Source: Bacillus nitratireducens (GTDB taxonomy: Bacteria > Bacillota > Bacilli > Bacillales > Bacillaceae_G). Taken from it: a stretch of 64,000 nucleotides of DNA. Numbering within the stretch: the first letter of the stretch is position 1; every line of letters begins with the position of its first letter. The notes under the pieces are model-generated. The model made no database searches. It had not been told where the DNA came from and saw only the letters and a list, made by a program, of their open reading frames with translations. Both the position numbers and the translations under genes were made by a program. Shown here one piece after another: positions 8,080-37,201 of this stretch. The stretch lies in assembly GCF_001884135.1 (NCBI RefSeq), contig NZ_MAOC01000026.1, positions 62,001 to 126,000 of the forward strand. Reading direction: 5' to 3'.

Positions 8080-8121
8080 TCTCTTCATCCCTTTCAACAA
8101 TTGACCACTGCTTAAACATAT

Positions 8122-8254
8122 GTGTTCGTTATTTTGTTTATTCCAGTTGAAACGATAGTTAGTCCAGTGAAAAAAGTGTTCTAGATATGAAAAAAGGAAT
8201 ATACAATGCTACAAAACAAGTAGAACAAAAAATCATTTTCTCAAAAAATGTTCT
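8122..8254. promoter_or_regulatory. lsrR-lsrA control region with repeated TGTTCT/AGAACA half-sites
   Basis: The divergent intergenic region has TGTTCT at 8177-8182 and 8249-8254, AGAACA at 8222-8227, and a near copy (TGTTCG) at 8123-8128. The pair 8222-8227/8249-8254 is a perfect inverted repeat spaced by 21 bases. A possible -10 (TATACA, 8200-8205) lies 17 bases after the first half-site. These are candidate LsrR operators flanking the lsrA promoter; the assignment is inferred from position. Confidence 0.45.
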
Positions 8255-8276
8255 GCATAAAGGCAGGTAATATCAT

Positions 8277-9770: not shown

Positions 9771-10735
9771 AACGTGTATTTAAGATGCATGAGACGTCTA
9801 TTATTATTTTATTACTTCTTTATATAGCCTTCGTTGGAGTAATGAATCCTAGTTTTATTCAGTTTAGCTCATTATCTTTAATGCTGAAATCAAGCGTTAT
9901 TTTAGTTGTTTTGGCAATTGGTCAATCTTTCGTATTATTTACGAAAAATATTGATGTATCAGTAGGATCTATTATGGGCTTAAGCGCTGCGGTTTGTGGG
10001 ATGTTGTTAACAGATGGATACAGTGCCTTTATTTCAATATTTGCGGCAATTATACTTGGTGCTCTTATTGGTATGGTAAACGGAATTGGCGTTACGAAAT
10101 TTCGAGTGCCAGCTATCATTATGACATTAGGAATGCTCGGGATTATTAGAGGTGCAATGTTACTATTTACGGGCGGAAAGTGGATTGAAGATATTCCGAA
10201 TAAGTATAAACAGATTTCTTCTATTATGATGCTCGGTATTCCGATAACCGTATGGACCGTTCTTATCATATTACTGCTACTATATTTCTTTTTAATGAAA
10301 GTACAAATTGGAAGATATTTTTATGCGGTAGGTGATAATGAAGATGGTGCAAGGCTTATTGGAATACATGTAGATAAAGTGAAAATATACGCGTTTATCA
10401 TATCAGGCATAAGCGCTGGGATCGCTGGATGCATATTCGTAATGAATATTGGGTTCGTTCCAAATCAAACAGGTACAGGGATAGAATTGCAAGTGATCGC
10501 CGCTGCTGTTTTAGGTGGTATTCATTTAAAAGGAGGAACAGGTTCTATATTTGGAGCGGCATTAGGTGCATTCTTTTTAGAAGTTATAAGCAGCTCACTT
10601 GTCTTTTTAAAAATACCTGCATTTTGGAATAGTGCTATTTCAGGATTTTTACTTTTACTCATCATTATATTAGATAGCGTCTTAAAAAAATGGAAGAAAC
10701 TCCAGCAATTAGAAGAAAGGAGGGTGAATCTATGA
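9767..10735 (+). CDS. lsrC: AI-2 ABC transporter permease LsrC
   Basis: A 322-residue integral membrane protein of the ribose-type ABC permease family with 8-10 hydrophobic segments. The family motif [16 protein letters not shown] follows the second or third segment, and GIELQVIAAAVLGG with GGTGSIFGA is the conserved loop near the C-terminus that contacts the ATPase. It forms the AI-2 channel with LsrD. The start is GTG with AGGGAGG 9 bases upstream, overlapping the lsrA stop by 4 bases. Confidence 0.88.
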   Translation: MKRVFKMHETSIIILLLLYIAFVGVMNPSFIQFSSLSLMLKSSVILVVLAIGQSFVLFTKNIDVSVGSIMGLSAAVCGMLLTDGYSAFISIFAAIILGALIGMVNGIGVTKFRVPAIIMTLGMLGIIRGAMLLFTGGKWIEDIPNKYKQISSIMMLGIPITVWTVLIILLLLYFFLMKVQIGRYFYAVGDNEDGARLIGIHVDKVKIYAFIISGISAGIAGCIFVMNIGFVPNQTGTGIELQVIAAAVLGGIHLKGGTGSIFGAALGAFFLEVISSSLVFLKIPAFWNSAISGFLLLLIIILDSVLKKWKKLQQLEERRVNL

Positions 10736-11730
10736 GGGGAATACGTAGTTTGTATAGATGGGAAGGGGTTCTTCTCTTATTGCTTCTCATAGAATTCATT
10801 TTCTTTAGTATCATAAATAGTGATTTCTTAAACATTAGTAACCTCCTTTTTAGCATGAACGATTTCCTCATTATTTCAATTGCGGCTATTCCGATGACAT
10901 TTGTCATTGTAACTGGCGGAATTGATGTATCAGTAGGATCTATTATGGGGCTTACTTCGATTCTTATCGGCGTACTTTGGATGAATGGTATGCCGATACT
11001 GTTGGCAGTTATCATTGCGCTCGTAGTAAGTTGTATAGCCGGCGGATTAAATGGACTTATTATAAAAATGACAGATGTAGAACCTCTTGTCGTTACACTT
11101 GGAACGATGTTTTTATATGCAGGAATCGCCCTTGTTATTTCAGGTGGTTCGGGGGCAGCGGGCTATGAAGGAATTAGTGGTTTACCAGATTCGTATGTGC
11201 AATTGGCAAATGGTAGTTTTATCGGTATACCTAATTTATTATGGCTCCTTGTCATTTTAACGATAGTATTTACGATATTGTTTCACCATACAACATACGG
11301 TCGTCACGCAAAACTAACTGGCGCAAATGAAAGTACGGCGAAATACTCCGGGATTCGAACGAAGAAAGTAGTGATTATTGCATACGTACTTTCTGGGTTA
11401 GGAGGTGGATTAGGAGGAGCTTTCTTAACAGCGTATTTCGGTTCTGCTCGTGCTGATATTGGAAGTGAAACGATTTTGCCAGTTATTACGGCAGTTGTTT
11501 TAGGTGGAACACTTATTACGGGCGGAAAAGGGAGTATTATTGGGACAGTACTAGCGAGTATTTTTATAGGACTTATGCAGTACGGTTTGCAAATGACTGG
11601 CTTAACGAATGAACAATCCAATGTAGTAATTGGTATTATCCTTATTCTTTCAGTTATTATGAGACATTTCAAATTACATCAATTCTTAGCGGGGAAAAGA
11701 CGGAATTTGCATAAGGGGGAAATGTCATGA
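10732..11730 (+). CDS. lsrD: AI-2 ABC transporter permease LsrD
   Basis: A 332-residue permease of the same family as Lsr[17 protein letters not shown] in the first third, [20 protein letters not shown] in the middle, and [20 protein letters not shown] near the end. The start at 10732 (ATG, behind AAAGGAGGG) overlaps the lsrC stop as ATGA; an in-frame ATG at 10690 lies inside lsrC and has no ribosome site. It pairs with LsrC to form the transmembrane channel. Spacing throughout the operon indicates tight translational coupling. Confidence 0.88.
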
Positions 11731-22693: not shown

Positions 22694-23179
22694 TTAAATA
22701 TATTTACTCAATATCTCTCCAGGTAATCCATCAATCTCACAAACTACATCTGATGTAAAACCAACGTTAATTAATATTTTTCGAGAGGGGATATTATTTG
22801 GATCGATAATTGCCTTTAGTACGTTTACATCTGTCTGCTTCGCTATTTCAATTAATTCTCTTGCAATATAACTACCATATCTTTTTCCCCAGTGCTCTGG
22901 CAAAATCATATACCCAATTTCAGCTTCTTTTACATGATCTTCATGCACTGTTACATGTCCAAGGCCGATAAATTCATTTGTTGCACTGTCATAAACTGTA
23001 TAAGACCCAACCAGTTTATGTTTTTCATTGCGCCTTAACAATTTTTCATAGTCGTTTTGTGCCTCTTCTAGCAGAATAGCACGCTCTGTAATTTGTGCCA
23101 TCACTCTTTCATTTGATACGAGCTGAAAGTATAGATTAAAATCTGTTGCTTCAAATTTTTTGAAATGTAGTTTATGCAT
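22694..23179 (-). CDS. GNAT family acetyltransferase
   Basis: A 161-residue RimJ/RimL-like GNAT. The acetyl-CoA binding region is ILPEHWGKRYGSYIARELIEIA (about 95-115, with the Arg/Gln-x-x-Gly-x-Gly/Ala-like turn GKRYGS), followed by PNNIPSRKILINVGF, the usual late motif. The substrate is unknown. The ATG follows GGAGG. It is separated by 53 bases from the upstream minus-strand VOC gene, so the two may be co-transcribed. Confidence 0.75.
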   Translation of the reverse strand: MHKLHFKKFEATDFNLYFQLVSNERVMAQITERAILLEEAQNDYEKLLRRNEKHKLVGSYTVYDSATNEFIGLGHVTVHEDHVKEAEIGYMILPEHWGKRYGSYIARELIEIAKQTDVNVLKAIIDPNNIPSRKILINVGFTSDVVCEIDGLPGEILSKYI

Positions 23180-23232
23180 CGGATTCCTCCAAACGAATTT
23201 TTAATTGTTCTTCAGAAAAGATAAAACGACAG

Positions 23233-23613
23233 TTAAATAGTAATCTCTATTTGATTACCTCCCGGATCGCTTATTACACTTTCATAATAGCCATCTCCAG
23301 TGAAACGTGGTCCATTTAATAAAGGATAACCTGCTTCTTTTAACGTTTTTGTTAGTTCATTTACACGTTCTTCACTACCAACAGAGAAAGCCATATGTGC
23401 ATAGCCAGTTATATTTAGGTTAGGCTCGTTTTCTATGCCTTTCTTACGCATAATTTCAAGACGCGCTCCAGATTCGAACGTAATAAAATATGATTCAAAT
23501 TGTTTTGCTTCGTTATGATATAAAGAGTTTGTTTTGCCGTTGAAATACTTTGTATAAAAAGTACGCATTAATTCTAAATCATTTACCCAAATTGCTATAT
23601 GTTCGATTTTCAT
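23233..23613 (-). CDS. VOC family protein (glyoxalase-like)
   Basis: A 126-residue glyoxalase-fold protein that starts [20 protein letters not shown] (His as first ligand), has [18 protein letters not shown] in the middle (second ligand His) and ends [12 protein letters not shown] (Glu ligand), the classic VOC ending. The start at 23613 is chosen because GGTGA precedes it; a GTG at 23625 is in frame. Compact size and complete ligand set suggest a metal-dependent lyase or resistance-type binding protein. The substrate is not known. Confidence 0.78.
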
Positions 23614-23675
23614 TCGTTTCACCAATCCTATCTTTATGTAAATTTTAAAAAGTATACTCTGTAGTAATTAGCGGA

Positions 23676-23701
23676 GGTGAACAACACTAATTAGATGTTC
23701 A
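23676..23701. promoter_or_regulatory. Inverted repeat GTGAACA-N12-TGTTCAC
   Basis: A perfect 7-bp inverted repeat spaced by 12 bases, in the region between the divergent VOC and membrane protein genes. The shape suits a TetR- or MarR-type operator. No regulator gene is adjacent. Confidence 0.35.
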
Positions 23702-23861
23702 CTTTATTAAATTTGCAATCATATTTCAAGAAATAGGAAAAAGCGGATTGTAATAAAAAAGTTTTATTAATGGTATTAGATAATTTTTAAGTCATAACAT
23801 GCATACAATGTCTAATTAAGTGAATTACGTACGTCAAAATTTCAAATAAGGAGGGGCATTT

Positions 23862-24353
23862 GTGGGGCAATTTGAACAAATGATGATTGTCGGTATTTCC
23901 ATGTCTTTTATACTATCTATTATGATATTAGGGTCTACATATTATAACCCTCGCCTTTGGTTAAATGATTATCCGAAAGATATTCAAAAAGTAGTTTTGC
24001 CAAAATCGATAAATGAAAAAAAACAAACGTTTTATTTCGGAATTATTTACAATATTATTCTCTTCGGAACACCTTTCATTTCTACATATATACTACATCA
24101 CCATGTGAAATTATTGTATATTGAGGCTTATTTACATACTTTTGGGATTGTAATGATTTTTAATTTAGTAGATTTATTAATAATCGATTGGCTTATATTT
24201 TGCTGGATTACTCCGAGGTTTGTTGTTATTCCTAGTACTGAGGGAATGAAAGGATATAAAGACTATAAGTTTCACTTAAGAGGTGCAATAGCTGGAACGC
24301 CATTTTTAGCAATTGTAAGTTTATTTTTGGCAGGAATTGCGACAACTATTTAG
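23862..24353 (+). CDS. Four-helix membrane protein of unknown function
   Basis: A 163-residue protein with about four hydrophobic segments (about 7-27, 55-75, 85-115 and 140-160) and a short soluble stretch with PRLWLNDYPKDIQ. I do not recognise a characterised family; similar small membrane proteins occur in Bacillus. The start is GTG with AAGGAGGGG upstream. It precedes satA by 52 bases and may share its transcript. Confidence 0.6.
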   Translation: MGQFEQMMIVGISMSFILSIMILGSTYYNPRLWLNDYPKDIQKVVLPKSINEKKQTFYFGIIYNIILFGTPFISTYILHHHVKLLYIEAYLHTFGIVMIFNLVDLLIIDWLIFCWITPRFVVIPSTEGMKGYKDYKFHLRGAIAGTPFLAIVSLFLAGIATTI

Positions 24354-24405
24354 TATAAGGAAGAGAGGGACGAAACGTTAATACTTATACTTAAAGGAGT
24401 AAATA

Positions 24406-24972
24406 ATGAGCCTTGTGATTAGAAAACTAGAAATAAATGATTTAGACCATTTACCTGAAATTGATGATAGTTTTACAGTGAATGCTCGGTTAGTGCTTTC
24501 TGTTTCAAAAATAAATAACCGAATAGAATATACAGTAGAAAACGTACCTAGTTATGAAAAAAGTTATTCAGAAAATCAGTATGATGACGATGAAGAAGAA
24601 CTAGCTTACAATGAATATATAAATAATTCTAATCAAGTAATTTACATAGCGCTTTTACATAACCAAATCGTAGGAGTTATCATATTGAAAAAGAATTGGA
24701 ATCGCTATGCATATATAGAAGATATAAAAGTGGATAAAGAATGTCGAGAACTCGGAATTGGTAGAAGGTTAATAGAACAAGCAAAGAAGTGGGCAAAAGA
24801 AGGTAATATGCCAGGTATTATGCTTGAAACACAAAATAATAATGTTGCAGCGTGTAAGTTTTATGAGAAGTGTGGATTTGTAATTGGGGGATTAGATTTT
24901 CTCGTATATAAAGGGATAAATGAGAAAAATGATGAAGTTGCGATTTATTGGTATTTAAAATTTGCAGCGTAA
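24406..24972 (+). CDS. satA: Streptothricin N-acetyltransferase SatA
   Basis: A 188-residue GNAT closely resembling Bacillus SatA (YyaR), which acetylates a lysine amine of streptothricin in the cytoplasm and so detoxifies it. Seen are LVIRKLEINDLDHLPEIDDSF at the start, the conserved VSKINNRIEYTVENVP segment, acetyl-CoA motif VDKECRELGIGRRLIEQAKK (about 107-126) and the ending NNVAACKFYEKCGF. Length matches the family. The ATG follows AAAGGAG. Neighbours are a membrane protein upstream and an SMI1/KNR4 gene downstream, neither obviously linked. Confidence 0.85.
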   Translation: MSLVIRKLEINDLDHLPEIDDSFTVNARLVLSVSKINNRIEYTVENVPSYEKSYSENQYDDDEEELAYNEYINNSNQVIYIALLHNQIVGVIILKKNWNRYAYIEDIKVDKECRELGIGRRLIEQAKKWAKEGNMPGIMLETQNNNVAACKFYEKCGFVIGGLDFLVYKGINEKNDEVAIYWYLKFAA

Positions 24973-25006
24973 TTATGTTAGTAAAGTTAAAGGCTAGGTG
25001 TACCTT

Positions 25007-25420
25007 ATGAGAGAAGTAAGAGAGATCATTCAAACAAGGAAAACAGGAGTAGACGAAATAGATATAAAGGAAACGGAAGAAAAGTTAGGTGCTATTTTCC
25101 CAGAGCAATATAGAGACCTTTTCAAATTAGTTAATAACGCTGAAATAGGGGAATGGATACTATATCCTATTAAAGATAGTAGAAATCTAAAAAAAACATG
25201 GGATGATATTATTAGACAAAATATTGAAATGAGAGAAGAAGATATACCTGAAAACCTTATTATAATTGGTGATGATGGTTCAGGGGATAAGTTGTGCTTC
25301 AAAATAAATAATGGAGTAATGAGTGATGTAATATATCTTTGGTATCATGAAGATGCAGAGATTGAAGAATATGCCCAGGATTTAAAAGGTTTTATCACAG
25401 CAACTACTCAGGAAAATTGA
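25007..25420 (+). CDS. SMI1/KNR4 (SUKH) family protein
   Basis: A 137-residue SUKH-type protein: EIDIKETEEKLGAIFPEQYRDLF is the classic SMI1/KNR4 opening, followed by IIGDDGSGDKLCFK and a VIYLWYHED segment near the end. In bacteria many such proteins are immunity proteins of contact-dependent or polymorphic toxins, but no toxin gene is near. ATG 25007 is chosen behind AGGTG; a GTG 9 bases earlier is in frame. It is followed after 37 bases by a Cys-pair protein and probably forms a two-gene unit with it. Confidence 0.8.
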   Translation: MREVREIIQTRKTGVDEIDIKETEEKLGAIFPEQYRDLFKLVNNAEIGEWILYPIKDSRNLKKTWDDIIRQNIEMREEDIPENLIIIGDDGSGDKLCFKINNGVMSDVIYLWYHEDAEIEEYAQDLKGFITATTQEN

Positions 25421-25457
25421 AAAGATTTTATTGATTTAAATGAAGCGAGGATTAAAA

Positions 25458-26132
25458 ATGACAATGGAATTATATGGCGAACATTGGGATGGAATAAAAG
25501 GGTATAGAGTAATGGAAGGGAAAGATTCATATAATCATTATTTCGGTGGTCAAGATTGTGAATTACCATTGTGTAAGTTATGCGGTGAGAAAATGCATCA
25601 AATTTTTTGTTTTGATTTGAAAGATGAGAGACTTGCTGAACTTAAAAATGATGAAATGAATGTGTTACCATTCGTCTCTTGCTTAAATTGTGCGATGGTG
25701 TGGGAGCCGCAATATTTTCAATTAAGTAATGGGGGCAAAACGGTACAAATAATAAAACAAGACAATACGGAAGAGTGGATTATGGAAGCTGAGGATAAGC
25801 TACCGGCCAATCTTCCAAAAACTAATGTAAAGCTAACGAATATGAAAAATGAAGATATACCTACTGATGAAGATAGTTACTGGGAAGCTTTTGACTTATT
25901 CGGTTCGGAATATGTATGTAGATTGTTAGGACCGCCTTTATATGGTGATGTTCCAGAAGATTTAGGATGTCCAACTTGTTCGAAAGAGATGAAATATGTT
26001 GCTACAATTACACAAGATCTTGAGGGACGGGAACTTATTTCAGTAGTTGATTTTCAGTTTGGGGAAATGAATATATATTATTACTTATGTAAAGATTGCT
26101 CCTTAATGAAAACCGAAATACAAGGTACATAA
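25458..26132 (+). CDS. Protein with four CxxC pairs, DUF1963-like
   Basis: A 224-residue cytoplasmic protein with four Cys-x2-Cys pairs (CKLC, CLNC, CPTC, CKDC), which suggests two zinc sites. The opening HYFGGQDCELPLCKLCGEKM and two repeated zinc-knuckle-like halves recall YwqG/DUF1963-type proteins, often found beside SUKH immunity genes; this likeness is tentative. The ATG at 25458 follows GAGG, and an in-frame ATG at 25440 lacks a site. It follows the SMI1/KNR4 gene closely, and a terminator lies just after it. Function unknown. Confidence 0.55.
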   Translation: MTMELYGEHWDGIKGYRVMEGKDSYNHYFGGQDCELPLCKLCGEKMHQIFCFDLKDERLAELKNDEMNVLPFVSCLNCAMVWEPQYFQLSNGGKTVQIIKQDNTEEWIMEAEDKLPANLPKTNVKLTNMKNEDIPTDEDSYWEAFDLFGSEYVCRLLGPPLYGDVPEDLGCPTCSKEMKYVATITQDLEGRELISVVDFQFGEMNIYYYLCKDCSLMKTEIQGT

Positions 26133-26137
26133 TAAAG

Positions 26138-26169
26138 TAAGACTGACATAATGAGTCAGTCTTATTTTT
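26138..26169 (+). terminator. Terminator at the convergent gene ends
   Basis: A 10-bp stem (26138-26147 with 26155-26164), 7-base loop and five T. The 3' arm overlaps the stop codon of the opposite-strand kinase gene. Confidence 0.8.
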
Positions 26170-26665
26170 GTTGCGTCACATCATTAACAATCGCATGAAA
26201 TATGTCTTTTTGCGTGAAATCATCTGTAAAAATAGTTTCTCTATCAACTTCAATTGAATCGTGCGGGTTATACCATTTACTTAATAAATCTTCTCCAAAT
26301 TCAAGTCTTTTTTCTCTCGTATTATGCCGTCTAATTGTTTCTTCAAGTGATAAATCAAAATAATATGTATAAGCGTTTCCTTCAAAATAATGTATTAATT
26401 CTTTTAACATATCACCGTATCTACGACTGTTTAGTATACCTTCTAAAATAACAAATTCACATTTTCCTTTTCCGTACTTCGTAATTTCAAAAATTAAATC
26501 GTGAGACAGATTTCCCATTGTGTCGTGAACTTTTAACATATCTCTACGAACTACATCTTGAGAGACTAGTAGTGTTCCTTGCCCGAAATGTTCTTGCAGT
26601 TCTTTTGCGATCGTTGTCTTGCCACTTGCGGAGTTTCCTCGAAGAATGATTAATGTTGATTTCAA
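26162..26665 (-). CDS. P-loop kinase-like protein (AAA family/zeta-like)
   Basis: A 167-residue P-loop protein. Walker A GNSASGKT is at residues 10-17, followed by SQDVVRRDML (acidic substrate-binding strand, as in zeta-toxin and chloramphenicol phosphotransferase kinases), FVILEGIL (Walker B-like) and an arginine-rich lid RRHNTREKRLEFG. It probably phosphorylates a small molecule; B. cereus relatives are usually only called kinases. The start is TTG with GGAG 8 bases upstream. No antitoxin partner is adjacent, so a toxin role is unlikely. Confidence 0.65.
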   Translation of the reverse strand: MKSTLIILRGNSASGKTTIAKELQEHFGQGTLLVSQDVVRRDMLKVHDTMGNLSHDLIFEITKYGKGKCEFVILEGILNSRRYGDMLKELIHYFEGNAYTYYFDLSLEETIRRHNTREKRLEFGEDLLSKWYNPHDSIEVDRETIFTDDFTQKDIFHAIVNDVTQQK

Positions 26666-27041
26666 AGTCTCATCTCCAAATTGTAAGTGTTTTTTAGCGC
26701 TTTATGTGGGAAAATCTCTTAGTTGGATAAGTAATAGTTTATGGCATTTGTTCTAGGTTGAACAGTTTAAATTTTATTTGTAAAGATACAGCGAATAGCG
26801 AATAGGTAAACTCATCGTAAGTTAAAAGATTGTAATCGACAAATCTTATTTTGCTATAAAACTTTTGTACAGATATGTTGTCAGGGTGAACTGTTAAACG
26901 AATTCGCTGACAACATATAAATTATAAAAGTAGAAGTAGTTTTCAATTGTAATGTTTTGTGTATTATTTAGAATTTTTTTACAATTTAACAAAATAAAGT
27001 GTATAATCAATGTGATGAAAAATAAAGAGGGGATAAAGTAG
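26666..27041. other. Intergenic region with a hairpin and a promoter
   Basis: The 376-base region holds a perfect 12-bp inverted repeat (26873-26884 with 26907-26918, 22-base spacer) without a T run, and a promoter for the downstream decayed gene (TTTACA 26978-26983, 18 bases, TATAAT 27002-27007). Nothing else was recognised. Confidence 0.5.
26978..27007 (+). promoter_or_regulatory. Promoter of the decayed YfzA-like gene
   Basis: TTTACA (one mismatch to TTGACA), an 18-base spacer and a perfect TATAAT. It lies 35 bases before the GTG start, so transcription probably continues although the gene is broken. Confidence 0.6.
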
Positions 27042-27347
27042 GTGGGAGATATAATTACAAAAGGACAGCCTGTATGGAAACGGACATGGTTTGGCTATTT
27101 AGAGGCAGTTTTACGTATTTAATTACTATTTATTATTTGTGAAGTCACTACATGGGCACCACACTTTAGAACGGGTGGAGAATTTTTTAATACAATATTA
27201 AACTCTCAATTTTTCACGGAATGGTTCGTACCATATCAAATCCCACAATTTAATGTATTTACAGCGTTTTTTGCGATAACATTACTACCAAATGCGTTAA
27301 TAGGTGCAATTAAAGATTTAATCTTGAGAAAAAATATAAATAATTAA
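27042..27347 (+). pseudogene. YfzA-like small membrane protein gene broken by a nonsense codon
   Basis: From a GTG at 27042 (AGAGGGG upstream) the frame reads MGDIITKGQPVWKRTWFG and then meets TAA at 27120-27122. The same frame resumes as LLFIICEVTTWAPHFRTGG and runs open to TAA at 27345-27347, ending in a second membrane segment (ITLLPNALIGAI). Frame continuity on both sides of a single stop shows a point nonsense mutation (for example TTA or CAA to TAA). The two membrane segments and central soluble part resemble YfzA-like proteins. The intact protein would be 101 residues. Confidence 0.65.
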
Positions 27348-27360
27348 TAAGAGGTACTAC

Positions 27361-27900
27361 ATGCTATTTCAAAAAGAAAATTTATCGGTTAGGTACGTAA
27401 TAAAAAAAGATGCACCTATCATTTCCACATGGTTAACAAACCCAGAAGTTTTACAGTATTACGAAGGACGAGATAATCCGCAATCTGTAGAAAAGGTACT
27501 TGCTCATTTTATACATAATCCAAACAGTAATGAAAAAAGATGCTTAGTAGAATTCGACGAAATGCCGATCGGTTACATTCAAATGTATCCAGTTGATTTT
27601 GAATGGAAAGCGTTATATGGATATGAAGAATCACAAAATGTATGGGGAATGGACCAATTTATCGGTGAACCACCCTTTTGGGGAAAGGGAATTGGAACAA
27701 AACTCGTTCAAGCAGCAATTACATACATTATGAAAGAAGAGGGGGCAGAAACAATTGCAATGGACCCTAAAGTAAATAACGAACGTGCGATAAAGTGTTA
27801 TGAAAAATGCGGATTTAAAAAAGTGAAGATTTTAAAGGAACATGAACTGCATGAGGGGAAATTAGAAGATTGTTGGATGATGGAATATAAACAATTATAA
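27361..27900 (+). CDS. GNAT acetyltransferase resembling aminoglycoside 6'-N-acetyltransferases
   Basis: A 179-residue GNAT of the AAC(6')-like group. It has ISTWLTNPEVLQYYEGRD in the N-terminal third, GMDQFIGEPPFWGKGIGTKL (acetyl-CoA motif, about residues 99-118), ETIAMDPKVNNERAIKCYEKCGF and a trailing charged beta strand. The G-M-D-Q-F-I-G-E segment is characteristic of AAC(6') and IucB-type acylases. Aminoglycoside activity is possible but unproven. The ATG follows AAGAGG. It is downstream of the broken YfzA-like gene by 13 bases and upstream of an isochorismatase gene by 43 bases. Confidence 0.7.
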   Translation: MLFQKENLSVRYVIKKDAPIISTWLTNPEVLQYYEGRDNPQSVEKVLAHFIHNPNSNEKRCLVEFDEMPIGYIQMYPVDFEWKALYGYEESQNVWGMDQFIGEPPFWGKGIGTKLVQAAITYIMKEEGAETIAMDPKVNNERAIKCYEKCGFKKVKILKEHELHEGKLEDCWMMEYKQL

Positions 27901-27943
27901 TGATTTATGAAAGGGCTTATACAAACAAAGGGAGCTGTGTAAA

Positions 27944-28468
27944 ATGAAAAAAGCATTAATAGTAATTGATGTGCAAGCGGGTATGTATACAGCAGGAATC
28001 CCAGTACATAATGGGGAAAAGTTTTTAGAAACATTACAAGAACTTATTGGGGAATGTCGTTCAAATGGTATTCCGGTTATTTACGTCCAACATAACGGGC
28101 CAAAAGATCATCCATTAGAAAAAGGGACAGATGGTTGGAAAGTACATGCGGCAATTGCTCCGCAAGAGGATGATAGTATCGTTGAAAAGACGACACCCGA
28201 TTCATTTAATAAGACGAAATTGAACAAAGTTTTACAAGAAAAAGGCATAGAGCATGTTATTATTTCAGGAATGCAAACCGAGTACTGTGTTGATACAACA
28301 ACGCGTAGAGCGTTTAGTGAAGGATATAAAGTAACATTAGTAAGTGATGCCCATAGCACGTTTGATACAGATGTATCACGTGCTGAAGATATTGTGAAGC
28401 ATCATAACGTCGTGTTGGGATCATTTGCAGATGTTATTGCGTTAAAAAATTTAAAAGTAGAAGCGTAA
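27944..28468 (+). CDS. Isochorismatase-family cysteine hydrolase
   Basis: A 174-residue cysteine hydrolase. The catalytic triad is visible: Asp9 (VIDVQ), Lys82 (VEKTTPDSF) and Cys115 (TEYCVDTT), with the usual cis-peptide region before the Cys (ISGMQTEYC). Family members hydrolyse isochorismate, nicotinamide or related amides. Without the isochorismate lyase operon this is more likely an amidase of unknown substrate. The ATG follows AAAGGGAG. A good terminator follows. Confidence 0.85.
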   Translation: MKKALIVIDVQAGMYTAGIPVHNGEKFLETLQELIGECRSNGIPVIYVQHNGPKDHPLEKGTDGWKVHAAIAPQEDDSIVEKTTPDSFNKTKLNKVLQEKGIEHVIISGMQTEYCVDTTTRRAFSEGYKVTLVSDAHSTFDTDVSRAEDIVKHHNVVLGSFADVIALKNLKVEA

Positions 28469-28482
28469 GTAAGTGTTGAAGG

Positions 28483-28526
28483 AGAAGCTATTCTAAATGG
28501 AAATTTGGAACAGCTTCTTTTTATTT
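28483..28526 (+). terminator. Terminator after isochorismatase gene
   Basis: A 7-bp stem (AGAAGCT 28483-28489 with AGCTTCT 28512-28518), extended inward past one mismatch, followed by a T-rich tail. Confidence 0.75.
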
Positions 28527-28573
28527 TTATCGATAAATCGCAAATATAATTTCATTCACCGTAAAGATAATGT

Positions 28574-28611
28574 AAAAAAGGAGCACCAGATTATCAACAA
28601 GGGTACTCCTT
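28574..28611 (-). terminator. Terminator of the DUF2512 gene
   Basis: On the minus strand AAGGAGTACC pairs with GGTGCTCCTT (one G-T pair), followed by a run of T (the A run at 28574-28579). Confidence 0.7.
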
Positions 28612-28621
28612 CACCAAAACG

Positions 28622-29062
28622 TTATTTCTTCTTATCTTTATCCAACACATTCTGTTCCTCAGCAAACTCCGTACCATATGCAAATCTGCGATTAATACGA
28701 ATATTATCGTTGTTATGACGAGTACGTGAATGAGAAAAGCGATGAACAATTACTTCAGATAATGTAAAGACGATGGCAGAAAGGATACTGCCCCAAGCAA
28801 TTTGCATGTAGTTGTCTAATAAAATATTTCCGAAGATCCAAACGCTTAAATACGTAAGTAAAAAGTTTGTCATAATGGCAGCAGAATCGCCAATTCGATT
28901 TAAAATGATTTTATCAACAAACATATAAGAAACGATTGTGACAAATAGACTAAAAGAAATAATTTGGACGAACGTAGCAGGGAAAAATAAAGCTAATCCG
29001 ATACTAAAAGCGATGATACACGATATAAATTTAATTACTATTACAGTAAAATCATTCAACAT
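28622..29062 (-). CDS. DUF2512 (YndM-like) membrane protein
   Basis: A 146-residue protein with four membrane segments (about 5-25, 30-50, 60-82 and 87-107) and a polar C-terminal tail rich in Arg, Asn and Lys. The arrangement and the MFVDKIILNRIGDSAA segment match DUF2512/YndM proteins of Bacillus. Function is unknown. The ATG follows GGAGGTG. It is transcribed away from the SIR2 gene. Confidence 0.7.
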   Translation of the reverse strand: MLNDFTVIVIKFISCIIAFSIGLALFFPATFVQIISFSLFVTIVSYMFVDKIILNRIGDSAAIMTNFLLTYLSVWIFGNILLDNYMQIAWGSILSAIVFTLSEVIVHRFSHSRTRHNNDNIRINRRFAYGTEFAEEQNVLDKDKKK

Positions 29063-29191
29063 TTACACCTCCGATTTATACATAGTTTTACAATAAATTC
29101 AGGAGTTCATACATTGGAACTGATTTATTTAGATAAAACTTTTTCATGTTTGAATTTTTGTCTAAATATTAAAAAAACAGAAGAAAAATGT

Positions 29192-29197
29192 TATAGT
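29192..29197 (+). promoter_or_regulatory. -10 element upstream of the SIR2 gene
   Basis: TATAGT lies about 44 bases before the chosen start codon. A transcript starting near 29204 would leave the first in-frame ATG (29211) almost leaderless, which supports the later ATG at 29241. No clear -35 is visible. Confidence 0.4.
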
Positions 29198-29240
29198 AAA
29201 ATGAGAGCGTATGACATTTTTAGGTAAGGGGGAATCCGGG

Positions 29241-32200
29241 ATGTGGATAACTTCAGAAGTAGAAATTCCAGATGAGTTAATCGATCACCTTGAACAAGGG
29301 AAGTTAGTATTATTCGTTGGAGCAGGAGTTTCTATGAAGGGGAAATCAAACTTACCGAATTTCGATGATTTAGTTGATGAAATTTCGAAAGCTTTATATG
29401 TCGAAAAGCGTGAGATGACAGAACCCCACGATTATTATCTTGGTAAAATTGCGAAAACGAAAGATGTGCATCAAGTTGCAAGAGATCTCGTTAATATAGA
29501 TAAATCAAAACCAAACCCATTACACTATGCTATTCCAAGGCTGTTCCCAGTAGATACGGATGTTCGTATTGTAACGACAAACTTTGATCAACATTTTACA
29601 TCTGTAATCGCTGAAATGAAAAGAGAGCTGAATATTTATTATGCGCCAGCTTTACCGACAGGGAGAGCGTTTAAAGGATTGGCTTACATACATGGAAATA
29701 TAGAACAGGAGAAAGAAGCTTTAATTTTAACAGATGGTGATTTTGGAAGGGCTTACTTAACAGAAGGTTGGGCGAGACGATTTTTAGTTGATTTATTTTC
29801 TAATTACACCGTTTTATTCGTTGGTTATAGTCATAATGACCCAGTAATGAAATATTTAGCAACAGGTTTACCACCGAGTACAAGGCGTTATGCTTTCGTC
29901 GCACAAGGTGATAATACATACCACTGGGAACATTTAGGAATAAGACCGATTGTGTATCCGAATAAAGCTAATAATCACCAGTCACTTGTGAAAGCGGTGA
30001 AACGATGGGCGGAATTAATGGGTGATAATTATATTACGAAAAGAATGCGTATTCGTGATATTGTAACCGTTCCTCCATCAGTAGAACAGGAGCAATTATC
30101 ATATATAAAACAATCAATAAAAAAAATCGAAACAGTTCGGTACTTTGTTGAATTTGCTCGTGATTACGAGTGGGTGGAATGGCTTGAAGCAGAGGGGAAA
30201 CTAAGAAATTTATTTCAGCTTACAGCAAATTATGATGAAGTAGATGAATTACTTGCAGAATGGTTAGTGGAGCAATTCCTTTTTACTCATCAAAAAGAAC
30301 TATTTCAATTGATTTTTAAAAATCATTCTAAAATATCCCCGTTATTGTGGCGAATAATTTGTACTTACTTGAACGAAACGAAAGAAACGATGGATCCTTT
30401 GTTGTTTGCAAAATGGACATTGCTTATATTAGAAACGGCAGAAAAAGATAGTAGCTCTATTGAAATGATTTCATACTTACTGCAAAAATGTTCTTTCCCA
30501 GAGCATAAAGAAATTGCTTTATTGTTACTAACGTTTATTTTAGATGGAAAACTTAAATTGAAGCGTGTAAGAAAATGGGGAAATGATACGCAAGAATCAA
30601 TTGAACTAGAGGAATCGAGTCGTTTACCGGTGTCTAAATTTTCTCATGTGGAGCTAATTTGGAATGATAAGATGAGACCGCATATTACTTATTATGCTGT
30701 TCCCATCATGATGATGGGATTAGAAAAGATTCGCCTGTTGTCATTAAGACAAACAGCACTGAAAAAAAGAAATAAGGATAATGTGGAGAGAGAGTTTTAT
30801 CAAAATGACCTCGCATTTTTAATTCAAATTGTAAAAGAGTGTCTTACATATTTATGTGAAAACAATGAGAAAAAAGCGGATTATTATATTACAGAAATGA
30901 TAGGAACAGATAGTATACTTCAAAAGCGAATCGCGATTGAAGCGATGAATAAAAATGTGTTCGTTACTGCGGATGTCAAATTGAAGTGGTTACTACATGA
31001 AGGCCTTCTGTTAGATTTCACATATAAACATGAAGTGTTTCAACTGTTAAAGAATTATTATGCAGATGCTTTAGAAGAAACAAAAGAAGAAGTGATTCAA
31101 ACTGTATTAGAACATCTTGCAGAAGAGAGGGCGTTTGATGCTTGTCTCGTATTAGATTCATTATTTGCATGCGATGCGAATAGTCGAAGCACGATAGAAG
31201 GATATGAATTAATGAAACAGAAGCACCCTCATTTTTCTTCTGATCGATACAGTGTTCCGAAGAAAGAATCTATTGAACAAAGCATTACTTGTAATGTAAC
31301 AGCTGATGGATTACTACAGCTGAAAGACGATGAAATAATGAAGCAAGTTCTGCAGTTTTCTCAAGATGGTGTTTTTGAGCAACGCCATTTTTTAGAGATG
31401 TTATCAAAAGCATGTAAATTGAATGTAGAGTGGAGTATTTCGTTTGCTTATCAACTAGTAGGCGTACATGAAATTAGTAATGAAGTTTGGTTTGTTTGTA
31501 TTAGAGAATGGCGAAATAATAGGAATTTAACGAGTGAGCAAATTCAAAGGATTATTCCGTTATTGCAGAAGTTTTCTCGAAATACTACTTTTCATTGGCT
31601 AATTAGTAGTTTTCTATATGAAATTAGCAATCGATTAGAAGAGCTAGAAGAAAATAGTATACGGGTTGTAAAGCGCTTTGCTTTTTCAGTATTTCCACAA
31701 GTTATGAGAGGGGAAACAGATTTTAAAATTGGAAAACAAGAGTTTTACAATGAGTCTATACAGCATCCTGTTGGGAAGATGACAGCTGTATTACTAAAAC
31801 TGTTAGCGTATGATCACTTATATGATCGCAATGTGTATGAATATTTATTTTTATTTGAGGAACAGGTAAGGGTTACTTCGGAAAGAACGAACTTTATGTT
31901 AACTCGTTTAACAGCAGATATTACGTTTTTATACCATATTGAGAAGCAATGGTGTCGAAAATATTTATTACCTTACTTAGATTTAAAGAAAGAAAATGAG
32001 CTGACCAAATATGCGTGGGCGGGATTATGTTATACGCAAATTAATTTACCTCTATTTACAGAAATAAAGAGATATATTAAATATGCGGTAGAACATTTAG
32101 AGGTGCTGCACCCGTATACGAGAGAAGCGTTTTTAAAATGGCTTAGCTTTGTATTTATTAAATGTGTACTGTATTGGGAGCAAAAAACAGATTGGTTATA

Positions 32201-32723
32201 CCCACTCTTAATGCAAGTAAACGAAAATAATAAAATTAAATTTATGCAGTATGTATGCTACTACGTAAAAACGTTAAGCGGAAAAGAACAACAAAAATTT
32301 TGGACAGCATGGCTAAGTGTATTTTTAAGAGAACGTCCGAAAATGGGTGTAATAACTACGAGAGAATATATGATGCTTTTACGTATTGTATTATGTATGG
32401 ATGAAATTTTAGAAAAAGGACTTTGTATTATATCAAGTAAATTTCTAGGTGTAGAAGGGCAATGCAATCAAGAGGAAATGAAACAGTTATTTACTGAGAT
32501 GCTTGAAAAGAAGAATGGCATGAAAGAATATAAAGGGCTTTATGCAAATGTCTTTTTTATTTTACTTCAAACACGTCAAGAAGCTGATTTACTTGAGAAG
32601 GAAATCATACAAATAAAAGAACAATTAACCCAGTATGGAGTAGAAAAACACGTATTAAAATTAATTGAAAATGAGATGATTCGTATCGGAATAGTAATGG
32701 AGAATTTGCACGAAGAATTCTAG
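29241..32723 (+). CDS. Large SIR2-domain protein, candidate antiphage NADase
   Basis: A 1160-residue cytoplasmic protein. Residues about 10-280 form a SIR2 domain of the bacterial defence type: VGAGVS at 26-31, TTNFDQ at 112-117, catalytic-type His151 in YIHGN and VGYSHND at 194-200, all NAD-binding or catalytic motifs. The remaining about 880 residues contain no motif I recognise; they look largely alpha-helical and rich in Leu, Glu and Lys, and may be a sensor made of helical repeats. This layout is like the Dsr1/Dsr2 antiphage sirtuins, where phage protein binding triggers NAD depletion. ATG 29241 is preferred (AAGGGGG 8 bases before). It is a single gene with no partner. Confidence 0.8.
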   Translation: MWITSEVEIPDELIDHLEQGKLVLFVGAGVSMKGKSNLPNFDDLVDEISKALYVEKREMTEPHDYYLGKIAKTKDVHQVARDLVNIDKSKPNPLHYAIPRLFPVDTDVRIVTTNFDQHFTSVIAEMKRELNIYYAPALPTGRAFKGLAYIHGNIEQEKEALILTDGDFGRAYLTEGWARRFLVDLFSNYTVLFVGYSHNDPVMKYLATGLPPSTRRYAFVAQGDNTYHWEHLGIRPIVYPNKANNHQSLVKAVKRWAELMGDNYITKRMRIRDIVTVPPSVEQEQLSYIKQSIKKIETVRYFVEFARDYEWVEWLEAEGKLRNLFQLTANYDEVDELLAEWLVEQFLFTHQKELFQLIFKNHSKISPLLWRIICTYLNETKETMDPLLFAKWTLLILETAEKDSSSIEMISYLLQKCSFPEHKEIALLLLTFILDGKLKLKRVRKWGNDTQESIELEESSRLPVSKFSHVELIWNDKMRPHITYYAVPIMMMGLEKIRLLSLRQTALKKRNKDNVEREFYQNDLAFLIQIVKECLTYLCENNEKKADYYITEMIGTDSILQKRIAIEAMNKNVFVTADVKLKWLLHEGLLLDFTYKHEVFQLLKNYYADALEETKEEVIQTVLEHLAEERAFDACLVLDSLFACDANSRSTIEGYELMKQKHPHFSSDRYSVPKKESIEQSITCNVTADGLLQLKDDEIMKQVLQFSQDGVFEQRHFLEMLSKACKLNVEWSISFAYQLVGVHEISNEVWFVCIREWRNNRNLTSEQIQRIIPLLQKFSRNTTFHWLISSFLYEISNRLEELEENSIRVVKRFAFSVFPQVMRGETDFKIGKQEFYNESIQHPVGKMTAVLLKLLAYDHLYDRNVYEYLFLFEEQVRVTSERTNFMLTRLTADITFLYHIEKQWCRKYLLPYLDLKKENELTKYAWAGLCYTQINLPLFTEIKRYIKYAVEHLEVLHPYTREAFLKWLSFVFIKCVLYWEQKTDWLYPLLMQVNENNKIKFMQYVCYYVKTLSGKEQQKFWTAWLSVFLRERPKMGVITTREYMMLLRIVLCMDEILEKGLCIISSKFLGVEGQCNQEEMKQLFTEMLEKKNGMKEYKGLYANVFFILLQTRQEADLLEKEIIQIKEQLTQYGVEKHVLKLIENEMIRIGIVMENLHEEF

Positions 32724-32761
32724 GGTGAAAGCGGAATTTTAAAAAAATAAATAAAAAGTTG

Positions 32762-32791
32762 TTGACAGTGTTTTAAAAAGCGTTCTATAAT
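32762..32791 (+). promoter_or_regulatory. Promoter of the aro operon
   Basis: A perfect TTGACA (32762-32767) and a perfect TATAAT (32786-32791) with an 18-base spacer. The first T-box leader starts about 45 bases further on. Confidence 0.8.
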
Positions 32792-32836
32792 ACGAATCAT
32801 ACTTATTCAATTTCAAAAACATTTGAATAAACAAAG

Positions 32837-33091
32837 TGCAATGAAGAGATCACAGTAGTGGTTAGTCTTACTGTAACAGAGAGCTGGTGGTTGGTGTGAA
32901 CCAGTACAGGGATAATCATGAATTACAGTCTTGGAGCATCTTTTTCGTAGTAAAGATACAATTGTCTTTATGAAGAAAGAGCGGTCAAATGATCGTTAAC
33001 AGTGAAGAGAGGTAGACGGAAATTTAGTCTACAACTAGGGTGGTACCGCGATAAATATCGTCCCTACTGATTTATTCAGTAGGGACTTTTT
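32837..33091 (+). promoter_or_regulatory. T-box leader 1 (tyrosine-type)
   Basis: A full T-box riboswitch: AGAGAGCTGGTGG and GGTGTGAACC of stem I, the specifier-loop segment GAATTACAG (TAC at 32924-32926), GGAGCATC, and the invariant AGGGTGGTACCGCG at 33037-33050. The terminator is an 11-bp stem (33060-33070 with 33076-33086) followed by TTTTTG. TAC as specifier would read uncharged tRNA-Tyr, which suits the pathway; exact framing of the specifier is from pattern knowledge. Confidence 0.9.
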
Positions 33092-33126
33092 GTATTTTGA
33101 CGGTCCAACTTGAAAATATAATAAAC

Positions 33127-33382
33127 ATGCGTTGAAAGGAAAAGCAGTAGTTGTTGTTTCCCTGTAACAGAGAGCTGGTGGTTGGTGCGAACCAGTACAA
33201 AAACAAGAGCGAATTACAGTCCTGGAGCATCTTTTTCGTAGTAAAGATATGTATCTTTATGAAGGGAAAGACGGTCACATTGATCGTTAACAATGAAGAG
33301 AGGTAGACGACAGTTGTCTACAACTAGGGTGGTACCGCGATAAATATCGTCCCTACTGATTGAATCAGTAGGGCTTTTTTGT
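33127..33382 (+). promoter_or_regulatory. T-box leader 2 (tandem copy)
   Basis: A second complete T-box directly after the first, with the same GAATTACAG specifier segment (TAC 33215-33217), AGGGTGGTACCGCG at 33326-33339 and a terminator (CCCTACTGAT 33351-33360 with ATCAGTAGGG 33364-33373) plus T run. Transcripts must pass both switches before reaching aroF. Confidence 0.9.
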
Positions 33383-33551
33383 ACAAAAAAGTGGCTTATT
33401 AACTAGTAGTTAGTGTCTTTATGGTAATTATTAGTTTAAAATAAGAAGAGGTATCGATTCCACTTTAAATTTGTATAATTAACCAGTTCTGAAAATAGAG
33501 AATTTTTCATTCTCTTACTATACTTTTAAAACATTAGAGGAGGATTTCCAA

Positions 33552-34628
33552 ATGGCAAATCATGAATTAGATCAATTACGTAAACAGGTAGATGAAATTA
33601 ACTTACAACTATTACACCTATTAAACAAACGCGGTGAAATCGTTCAAAAAATCGGGGAACAAAAACAAGTACAAGGTACGAAACGTTTTGACCCAGTACG
33701 TGAGCGTGAAGTGCTTGATATGATCGCAGAGCATAACGAAGGACCATTCGAAACGTCAACGGTTCAACATATTTTCAAAACGATTTTCAAAGCAAGCTTA
33801 GAATTACAAGAAGATGATAACCGTAAAGCGTTACTAGTATCACGTAAAAAGAAAAAAGAAAATACAATCGTTAATGTGAAAGGCGAATTGATTGGAAACG
33901 GAACACAAACGTTCATTATGGGACCTTGTGCAGTAGAAAGCTTAGAGCAAGTTCGCCAAGTAGGGCAAGCGATGAAAGATCAAGGGCTAAAATTAATGCG
34001 CGGTGGTGCTTTCAAACCGAGAACATCTCCATACGATTTCCAAGGTTTAGGAGTAGAAGGATTACAAATTTTACGCCAAGTAGCAGATGAGTTCGACTTA
34101 GCGATTATTAGTGAAATTTTAAATCCGAACGATGTTGAAATGGCGCTAGACTACGTTGATGTAATTCAAGTTGGAGCACGTAACATGCAAAACTTCGATT
34201 TACTACGAGCTGTAGGTAAAGTTAACAAGCCAGTATTACTAAAACGTGGATTAGCAGCAACAATTGATGAGTTCATTAACGCAGCGGAATACATTATTGC
34301 GCAAGGTAATGACCAAATTATTCTTTGTGAGCGCGGTATCCGCACATACGAAAGAGCGACACGTAACACATTAGATATTTCAGCAGTTCCGATTTTAAAG
34401 AAAGAAACACATTTACCAGTTATCGTTGACGTAACACATTCAACTGGACGTAGAGATTTACTATTACCAACAGCGAAAGCAGCACTTGCTATTGGAGCAG
34501 ATGCAGTAATGGCGGAAGTACATCCAGACCCAGCAGTTGCTTTATCAGATTCTGCGCAACAAATGGATATTCCGGAATTCCATAGATTCATGGATGAATT
34601 AAAAGGTTTCAAAAATAAATTATCTTAA
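33552..34628 (+). CDS. aroF: Bifunctional chorismate mutase / DAHP synthase
   Basis: A 358-residue cytoplasmic fusion. Residues about 1-90 are an AroQ-type chorismate mutase ([20 protein letters not shown], then [14 protein letters not shown]), and residues about 105-358 are a type I-beta DAHP synthase ([46 protein letters not shown]). It condenses PEP with erythrose 4-phosphate, the first step of aromatic synthesis; the mutase domain is usually the feedback-sensing part. In B. subtilis the protein is AroA(G). The ATG follows AGAGGAGG. It is controlled by two T-boxes upstream, and a third lies between it and aroC. Confidence 0.95.
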
Positions 34629-34640
34629 TTCCATATCATA

Positions 34641-34881
34641 TATGCGCTGAAGAGGAAACAGTAGTGCTTATCTCACTGTTAAAGAGAGCTGATGGCCGGT
34701 GTGAATCAGTACAAAGGTAAGCATGAATTACAGCCTTGGAGCATCTTTCCCGCCAATTTGTGGAGGGGAAGACGGTCAAACGATCGTTAAAGAAGAAGAG
34801 AGGTAGACGATAGTTGTCTACAACTAGGGTGGTACCGCGATAAACATCGTCCCTACTGAGCGCTCAGTAGGGACTTTTTTG
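34641..34881 (+). promoter_or_regulatory. T-box leader 3, between aroF and aroC
   Basis: A third T-box with the same GAATTACAG segment (TAC 34729-34731), AGGGTGGTACCGCG at 34826-34839 and a terminator (CCCTACTGAG 34851-34860 with CTCAGTAGGG 34863-34872) followed by six T. No clear promoter lies before it, so it probably gates read-through from aroF into the rest of the operon. Confidence 0.9.
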
Positions 34882-34910
34882 TACAAAAAAATAGTAAAGG
34901 GGCAAGAGAA

Positions 34911-36083
34911 ATGAGATACATTACAGCTGGAGAATCACATGGTCCGCAGTTAACGGTTATTTTAGAAGGTGTACCGGCAGGTTTAACATTAACAGCGGAA
35001 CATATTAATAAAGAATTATTAAGAAGACAAAAAGGACATGGGCGCGGAAGACGCATGCAAATTGAAACAGATACTGTTGAAATTGTAAGTGGTGTTCGTC
35101 ACGGGATGACACTTGGCTCACCAATTACGTTAATCGTAAAAAATGATGATTTCAAACATTGGACGAAAGTAATGGGTGCAGACCCGATTTCAGAGCAAGA
35201 AAGTAAAGAAATGAAACGTACAATTACAAAACCACGTCCAGGACATGCAGATTTAAACGGAGCTATTAAATACGGTCATCGTGATATAAGAAACGTATTA
35301 GAGCGCTCATCTGCAAGAGAAACGACAGTTCGTGTAGCTGCTGGTGCAGTTGCAAAACAAATTTTGAAAGAGTTAGGTGTGGAAATTGCAGGGCATGTGC
35401 TTGAAATTGGTGGAGTGCAAGCGAAGCATATTTCAAACTTACCAATTGAAGAAATTAAAACGATAACTGAAAATTCACCTGTTCGATGTTTAGATAAAGA
35501 AGTAGAACAAGAAATGATGGATGCAATCGATAATGCGAAAAGCAGCGGAGATTCAATCGGTGGTATTGTTGAGGTAATTGCAGAAGGTATGCCAATTGGC
35601 GTTGGTAGCTACGTTCATTACGATCGTAAATTAGATGCAAAACTTGCTGGTGCTATTATGAGTATTAATGCATTTAAAGGTGCTGAAATTGGTGTTGGTT
35701 TTGAAGCGGCAAGACAACCAGGAAGTAAAGTGCACGATGAAATCCTTTGGGATGAAGAAAAAGGATACACGAGAAAAACGAACAATGCCGGCGGTTTAGA
35801 AGGCGGTATGACAACGGGAATGCCAATTGTCATAAGAGGCGTAATGAAGCCAATTCCTACATTATATAAACCGTTAGCAAGCGTAGATATTGATACGAAA
35901 GAAGCATTCCAAGCGAGTATTGAGAGATCTGATAGTTGCGCAGTACCAGCAGCAGGTGTAGTAGCTGAATCTGTTGTGGCATGGGAACTTGCAGATGCAC
36001 TAGTCGAACAATTCGGAAAAGATCGTATGGAATTATTAAAGCAAAACATTACACAACATAACAAATACGCAAAAGAATTTTAA
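34911..36083 (+). CDS. aroC: Chorismate synthase
   Basis: A 390-residue FMN-dependent enzyme making chorismate from EPSP. It starts [19 protein letters not shown], has [33 protein letters not shown] and [18 protein letters not shown], and ends with [18 protein letters not shown], all chorismate synthase signatures, including the FMN-binding His and Arg regions. The ATG follows AAAGGGGC. It is the first gene after T-box 3 and precedes hisC by 17 bases. Confidence 0.96.
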
Positions 36084-36100
36084 AAAAAGGTGGGTTTAAC

Positions 36101-37201
36101 ATGCAAGTAAAAGATCAACTATCATCATTACAACCATATAAACCAGGTAAATCCCCAGAGCAAATGAAAGAAGTATACGGAGATCATTCGTTTGTGAAAT
36201 TAGCATCGAATGAAAATCCATTCGGTTGTTCACCACGAGTTTTAGAAGAGTTGCAAAAATCGTGGTTGGAACATGCTTTATATCCTGACGGAGGTGCGAC
36301 AACGCTCCGTCAAACAATCGCAGACAAATTAAATGTTCAAATGGAACAAATACTTTGCGGCAGTGGTTTAGATGAGGTCATTCAAATAATAAGTCGCGCA
36401 GCATTACGAGCTGGAGATAACATCGTAACGGCTGGCGCGACATTCCCACAGTACCGTCATCATGCAATTATTGAAGGCTGTGAAGTGAAAGAAGTTGCTT
36501 TAAATAACGGTGTATACGACTTAGACGAAATCTCGTCAGCCGTTGATAACAATACAAAAATAGTTTGGATTTGTAATCCGAACAACCCGACAGGCACATA
36601 TGTGAATGAGCGAAAATTGACTCAATTCATTGAAAGCATTAGTGAAAATACGTTAATTGTCATTGATGAAGCGTACTATGAATACGTAACAGCAAAAGAT
36701 TTCCCTGAGACATTACCGCTTCTAGAAAAACATAACAACATTCTTGTACTTAGAACGTTTTCTAAAGCGTACGGATTAGCTTCTTTCCGAGTTGGTTATG
36801 CGATTGGACAGGAAGAGTTAATCGAGAAATTAAATGTCGTACGTTTGCCATTTAACGTATCTTCATTAGCGCAAAAAGCAGCGACGATTGCTTTTAACGA
36901 TGAAGAGTTTATTGAAGAAATTGTACGTGTTAATACAGAGGGATTACAACAATACGAAAGTTTTTGTAAGGAAAACGAAATTCCATTTTATCCGTCGCAA
37001 ACAAACTTCATCTTCTTACCAGTGGATAATGGGGGAGAGATTTATGAAGCTTGTGCACACGCAGGATTTATTATTCGTCCGTTCCCAAATGGTGTCCGTA
37101 TTACAATCGGAACTAGGGAACAAAATGAAGGAGTGATTTCAGTGTTAAAACAACACTTTGAAAATAAAAAAGGTAAGTCTCGAGATGAGGCAAATGTGTA
37201 A
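36101..37201 (+). CDS. hisC: Histidinol-phosphate/aromatic aminotransferase
   Basis: A 366-residue PLP aminotransferase of fold type I. SNENPFGCSPRVLEEL opens the protein, IVWICNPNNPTGTYV is the substrate/PLP loop and RTFSKAYGLASFRVGYA carries the PLP-binding Lys. In this operon, away from other his genes, it most likely serves the tyrosine and phenylalanine transamination step, as HisC does in B. subtilis, and may also act on histidinol phosphate. It overlaps the chosen tyrA start by 17 bases. Confidence 0.9.
   Translation: MQVKDQLSSLQPYKPGKSPEQMKEVYGDHSFVKLASNENPFGCSPRVLEELQKSWLEHALYPDGGATTLRQTIADKLNVQMEQILCGSGLDEVIQIISRAALRAGDNIVTAGATFPQYRHHAIIEGCEVKEVALNNGVYDLDEISSAVDNNTKIVWICNPNNPTGTYVNERKLTQFIESISENTLIVIDEAYYEYVTAKDFPETLPLLEKHNNILVLRTFSKAYGLASFRVGYAIGQEELIEKLNVVRLPFNVSSLAQKAATIAFNDEEFIEEIVRVNTEGLQQYESFCKENEIPFYPSQTNFIFLPVDNGGEIYEACAHAGFIIRPFPNGVRITIGTREQNEGVISVLKQHFENKKGKSRDEANV

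Follow-up and report, generated by a model that had tools for sequence, protein, structure and literature searches.

A Dsr1-related SIR2-DUF4020 protein of Bacillus nitratireducens in a sister clade of the defence sirtuin Dsr1

We analysed a 64,000-nucleotide stretch of the Bacillus nitratireducens genome (contig NZ_MAOC01000026.1, positions 62,001 to 126,000 of the forward strand; hereafter the window) and, within it, a single gene for a large protein with an N-terminal SIR2 domain. Judged from sequence comparisons, the protein belongs to a separate, well-supported clade that is sister to Dsr1, and this placement is the new part of our findings. The gene product is, in our view, likely to be a stand-alone antiphage protein of this sister subfamily and would hydrolyse nicotinamide adenine dinucleotide (NAD) on sensing phage. 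The features of the gene, in window coordinates, are:

29226..29234, plus strand: ribosome-binding-like AAGGGGGAA ahead of the 29241 start (sequence, by eye; strong match)
29241..32723, plus strand: SIR2-DUF4020 gene, 1160 amino acids (aa), Dsr1-related (open reading frame; Pfam SIR2_2 and DUF4020; PADLOC Dsr1 models; NCBIfam Dsr1 below the equivalog cut-off)
29241..30026, plus strand: SIR2 domain, residues 1-262, predicted NAD hydrolase (NADase)
29319..29333, plus strand: GAGVS nucleotide-binding motif, residues 27-31; G27, G29 and S31 in 21 of 21 aligned rows and A28 in 20 of 21 (window included)
29574..29588, plus strand: TTNFD motif (residues 112-116), holding the predicted catalytic Asn114; T112, T113, N114 and D116 present in all 21 rows (window included)
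29691..29693, plus strand: predicted catalytic His151 (in YIHGN), 21 of 21 rows (window included)
30081..32720, plus strand: predicted alpha-solenoid sensor tail, residues 281-1160; nearly all helix in both structure models, homology to Dsr1 tails
32151..32678, plus strand: DUF4020 (PF13212), residues 971-1146; Pfam, E 3.7e-70, 182 of 182 profile positions

The longest open reading frame runs from 29211 to 32723 (plus strand; 1170 aa), but we prefer the start at 29241 because the ribosome-binding-like site directly precedes it. The SIR2_2 match has an E-value of 2.5e-19 and is therefore not a chance match; this family and DUF4020 are the only Pfam matches of the protein at E up to 1. All motifs that an earlier, sequence-only reading had taken as marks of a defence-type SIR2 domain are present, including GYSHND at residues 195-200 of the 1160-aa form. 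GAGXS and TTNXD have been described as motifs in common (PMC12931631), and N133 and H171 of DSR2 have been reported as required for NAD cleavage and as conserved in DSR1 (PMC11087589). The SIR2 domain of the window protein contains no cysteine, and other members of its clade have 0 to 4. Canonical sirtuin deacylases carry a four-cysteine zinc ribbon, and we therefore rejected that identity for the window protein.

The same sequence-only reading had described a tail without recognisable motif, which the DUF4020 match corrects, a name that covers the C-terminal piece only. PADLOC Dsr1 models match the window protein with E-values down to 1.2e-54, one of them spanning residues 18-1023 of the 1170-aa form. 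Because existing Dsr1 models pick the protein up, we count its kind as already known, and the proposal of a wholly undescribed candidate is not supported; what is new is the separate sister clade. The last 860 residues alone match the NCBIfam Dsr1 model (NF041818) at E 1.1e-18, with the best stretch at profile positions 847-1191, and in BLAST residues 656-956 align to residues 781-1079 of L009, an Escherichia coli plasmid protein annotated as Dsr1 (E 7e-9, the E-value for a single comparison). In a profile comparison, profile A5 (seven tails of the window's clade) matched profile A6 (11 other Dsr1-type tails) with a probability of 100% and E 5.3e-41 over 787 columns at 14% identity. The window tail alone matched A6 with 96.9% (E 1.8e-10), and A5 matched the L009 tail, as a single sequence, with 99.8% (E 6.8e-29). 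Controls remained low: A5 gave 0.13% against the tail of L046, a SIR2 protein of another build, and 0.25% against a large neighbouring protein (L065:8805-11999), and A6 gave 0.04% and 2.6%, respectively. We read the window tail from these comparisons as a Dsr1 tail that has diverged and that has a catalogued Pfam domain at its end. The suspected resemblance to Dsr1 is borne out. The L046 protein (L046:2032-5589, plus strand; 1185 aa) appears by eye to be a SIR2 protein of a different kind, whose middle part resembles an ATPase and whose tail is made of repeats.

In a maximum-likelihood tree of 21 rows, which was rooted at the midpoint only and includes long branches for L063 and L010 and ten rows of unusual composition, one branch with 100/100 support parts eight rows, the window protein among them, from 13 Dsr1-type rows including E. 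coli Dsr1. The nearest relative is L045 (100/98). Single-frame relatives within the clade are L045 (30% identity), L012 (27%), L062, L058, L063 and, on a plasmid, L010; from L065 only the longer open piece (1029 aa) went into A3 and the tree, and L064, which lies in two frames, was omitted from alignments and tree. Two further plasmid proteins, L047 and L048, fall outside the clade beside Dsr1-type rows. SIR2_2 and PADLOC Dsr1 models match all eight clade members and DUF4020 five of the eight (E 0.001), with no DUF4020 in the Rhodococcus member at E up to 1; DUF4020 is not a defining mark of the clade. Of 24 viral loci found, the tree includes ten (L068, L071, L077-L084). L070 entered A4 and A8 alone and L074 entered A8 alone; L066 and L058 are one and the same contig; L069, L072, L073, L075, L076 and L087 were omitted as apparent near-duplicates (equal match length, identity class) and L067, L085, L086, L088 and L089 because they were broken, short or distant. 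Likewise, L059-L061, at 25% identity over 8-200, were not used.

Divergence within the clade is uneven. The window protein shares with the other seven members 44-51% identity over residues 1-262, 16-40% over 263-400 and 10-22% beyond 400. This contrast between a conserved enzyme and a fast-changing tail is consistent with a sensor tail, but weaker constraint on a scaffold would give the same pattern. Tentatively, and with the odds against it, the clade may add to Dsr1 and Dsr2 a third system of defence sirtuins, with the same NADase and a solenoid tail that senses a different phage product; because the tails diverge so much more than the enzyme, the triggers could form a family matched to each host's phages.

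By homology and analogy, we propose a DSR2-like logic for the window protein. DSR2 itself binds phage tail tube protein through its C-terminal domain, with opening of the SIR2 lid (PMC10973363). At rest, a long ARM/HEAT-like solenoid tail and assembly of the protein would hold the SIR2 lid closed; on infection, a phage product would bind the tail, opening the SIR2 pocket, and the opened enzyme would hydrolyse NAD via Asn114 and His151, so that the phage cycle would not be completed. What we infer for this protein is that it acts as an NADase, that it oligomerises, that a phage product triggers it and that it protects against phage. NAD loss may or may not be lethal to the cell, since a review has DSR1 blocking phage replication without cell death (PMC10952713). 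That report, together with the homology of the window tail to Dsr1 tails, also fits a defence protein of the same build in which SIR2 makes a signal or depletes NAD locally and the phage is stopped without the cell dying. We find this version rather doubtful, since no partner effector gene that could read a signal is among the scanned neighbours and the predicted SIR2 fold matches those of the NAD-hydrolysing DSR2 and ThsA.

Comparison with individual systems places the protein closest to Dsr1, with which it shares an N-terminal SIR2_2 domain with the same catalytic residues, a single-gene design and a tail homologous over the 787 columns given above. It differs in clade and in length (1160 aa versus 1263 aa for Dsr1), and it ends in a recognisable DUF4020, whereas E. 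coli Dsr1 shows none at E up to 1. From DSR2 of Bacillus subtilis, for which cryo-electron microscopy structures exist and whose SIR2 fold the predicted domain has, it differs in that no Dsr2 model is among its PADLOC matches, which number five at E up to 1. ThsA of Thoeris matches in the SIR2 domain, but ThsA model matches stop at residue 216-217 of the 1170-aa form, and we rejected ThsA identity since Pfam finds no C-terminal SLOG domain at E up to 1. SIR2-HerA was rejected on the adjoining genes, DUF2512 and, by eye, a DAHP synthase-type gene, with no helicase among 13 neighbours scanned, and Avs5 (SIR2-STAND) on the lack of an NTPase domain at E up to 1. Searches of PDB sequences turned up no solved Dsr1-type structure, and a viral structure library gave nothing telling. 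In the open-licence papers searched the word DUF4020 was not found, and the titles listed for DSR1, sirtuin or SIR2 cover DSR2, reviews and other subjects, none of them this clade.

Several relatives lie in defence or mobile surroundings. L062 sits directly behind PglXI-BrxHI-PglZ-BrxA on the same strand, and four of its six neighbours match BREX or methyltransferase models in PADLOC (two match none). L063 directly adjoins PDC-M11B and PDC-M11A, a PADLOC candidate defence pair (L063:9344-10457, minus strand); four of its seven neighbours have PADLOC matches, the other two being an HD-type dGTPase/Cas3b-like match and a general peptidase-type match. L058 lies within a lambdoid prophage with antitermination protein Q (PADLOC 0 of 1 neighbours), and the first 7.8 kb of its locus match 28 phage records, mostly from Klebsiella phages and other phages of enterobacteria; the matches listed cover no more than 28% of the query. 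L012 adjoins, by eye, a putative large serine recombinase that has no PADLOC match (0 of 1), and L010 is on a plasmid and annotated only as 'SIR2 family protein'. L064 (PADLOC 0 of 3; a DUF499 match below the Pfam cut-off in its neighbourhood) and L065 (1 of 2, a weak PglW match) have no convincing defence neighbour. Together with the family models and the predicted structure, the surroundings of some relatives support the suggested NAD-depleting antiphage role as a likely one.

The cargo at a prophage site ahead of replication protein P appears to vary. At L058:7842-12670 it consists of the SIR2 gene, at 7965-11483, and, by eye, a peptidase-like gene. The E. coli sequence that best matches the locus (32% covered; L091, NZ_CP015912.1 493856-510856) has restriction endonuclease, HEPN-domain and SEC-C genes there, flanked by a DUF1367/DinI pair on one side and by replication protein P on the other. 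Gene order, compared by eye, suggests that the two are the same slot.

Other results weigh against an antiphage protein of Dsr1 descent. The window protein scores 242 bits against NF041818, compared with 1674 for the E. coli plasmid Dsr1 and an equivalog cut-off of 1400, and PADLOC models run on the last 860 residues alone give no match at E up to 10. Tail-only structure searches returned general ARM/HEAT solenoids with DSR2 not listed, an absence from the VIA-align list that proves nothing by itself; whole-model alignments extend into the DSR2 tail only at a root-mean-square deviation of 12-16 Å, and long Foldseek tail alignments, mostly above 20 Å, are taken as general helical-repeat similarity only. 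Among 20 neighbour proteins of five relatives, 13 have no, weak or general-domain PADLOC matches, and these neighbourhoods are examples without a background rate, those of L045 and L010 not having been scanned. Pfam, run without PADLOC on 13 window neighbours, found no defence or mobile gene, with two matching nothing. The window gene stands alone beside housekeeping genes and L045, its closest relative, stands by eye alone between chromosomal genes, which would suit a protein deacylase or an NAD enzyme with a part in regulation or stress. Such a non-defence role nevertheless appears improbable to us, given a 262-residue SIR2 domain that has no cysteine and hence no deacylase zinc ribbon, the scattered occurrence of the gene, and the BREX, PDC-M11 and prophage surroundings of relatives.

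That occurrence amounts to six of 398 sampled Bacillota genomes matching the clade alignment at E 1e-10, two with full-length one-frame copies, two with copies in two frames and two with fragments. In L064, L065 and L067 the coding sequence appears broken into more than one frame, by real decay or by sequencing errors. Two-frame copies (L064, L065) and a viral contig whose open frame (L067; 483 aa) is shorter than the match indicate that the gene may often be lost, and they would suit a decaying or inactive relic; for the window copy, a single open frame with all catalytic residues, we judge this very improbable. The Dsr1 model matches 22 of 397 genomes of the order, none above the cut-off and only G747 with a tail match. 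The DUF4020 model matches 0 of 3 genomes and 1 of 398 of the class, absences that are weak since 14 control genomes gave none either. On plasmids, 58 records match, of which four were examined (L009, L010, L047, L048). Searched with the window protein, genome contigs gave five pattern stretches, none a relative, and viral contigs, with the single protein as query, one stretch that is not a relative; no relative was found in the phage collection or in 19 genomes of the Ectobacillus genome's family.

The surroundings of the window gene agree with those described from sequence alone, namely DUF2512 upstream and T-box leaders with aromatic-pathway genes downstream:

upstream neighbour, minus strand: DUF2512 gene (Pfam)
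29169..29197, plus strand: promoter-like site TTAAAA-17-TATAGT (weak evidence; 25 such sites in the region against a shuffle mean of 22.3, so the class is not above chance)
32762-32791, plus strand: sigma-70-type promoter match, 12/12, right after the SIR2 stop codon
32832-33068, 33123-33357 and 34638-34857, plus strand: three T-box leaders (RF00230), 87% mean column identity among the three
33552-34628, downstream: DAHP synthase-type gene (by eye)

Two T-box leaders lie in tandem ahead of the DAHP synthase-type gene and the third ahead of chorismate synthase, which with EPSP synthase is assigned by Pfam in the downstream aromatic-pathway cluster. The promoter match at 32762-32791 is likely the start of a separate T-box transcript. 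GC content is 0.336 for the SIR2 gene, 0.30-0.37 for upstream and 0.38-0.40 for downstream neighbours, and is uninformative on transfer. An empty-site test failed: 13 loci around DUF2512 relatives (best 64% identity; five of only about 3.4 kb, and L013 repeating the L001 genome) contained not one of the 13 further window genes that were looked for, and insertion could therefore not be shown. Window positions 23000-37000 and 1-25000 had no megablast match on plasmids. A few kilobases upstream, at 24998-25417 (plus strand), lies a SUKH-family protein with an immunity-type domain.

With full-length members in Bacillota genomes, on an actinobacterial plasmid and in an enterobacterial prophage, the sister clade provides a comparison set for Dsr1. 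For annotation, proteins named only 'SIR2 family protein', such as L010, could become Dsr1-related, and the combination of a conserved enzyme with fast-changing tails could help to find what Dsr1-type proteins sense.
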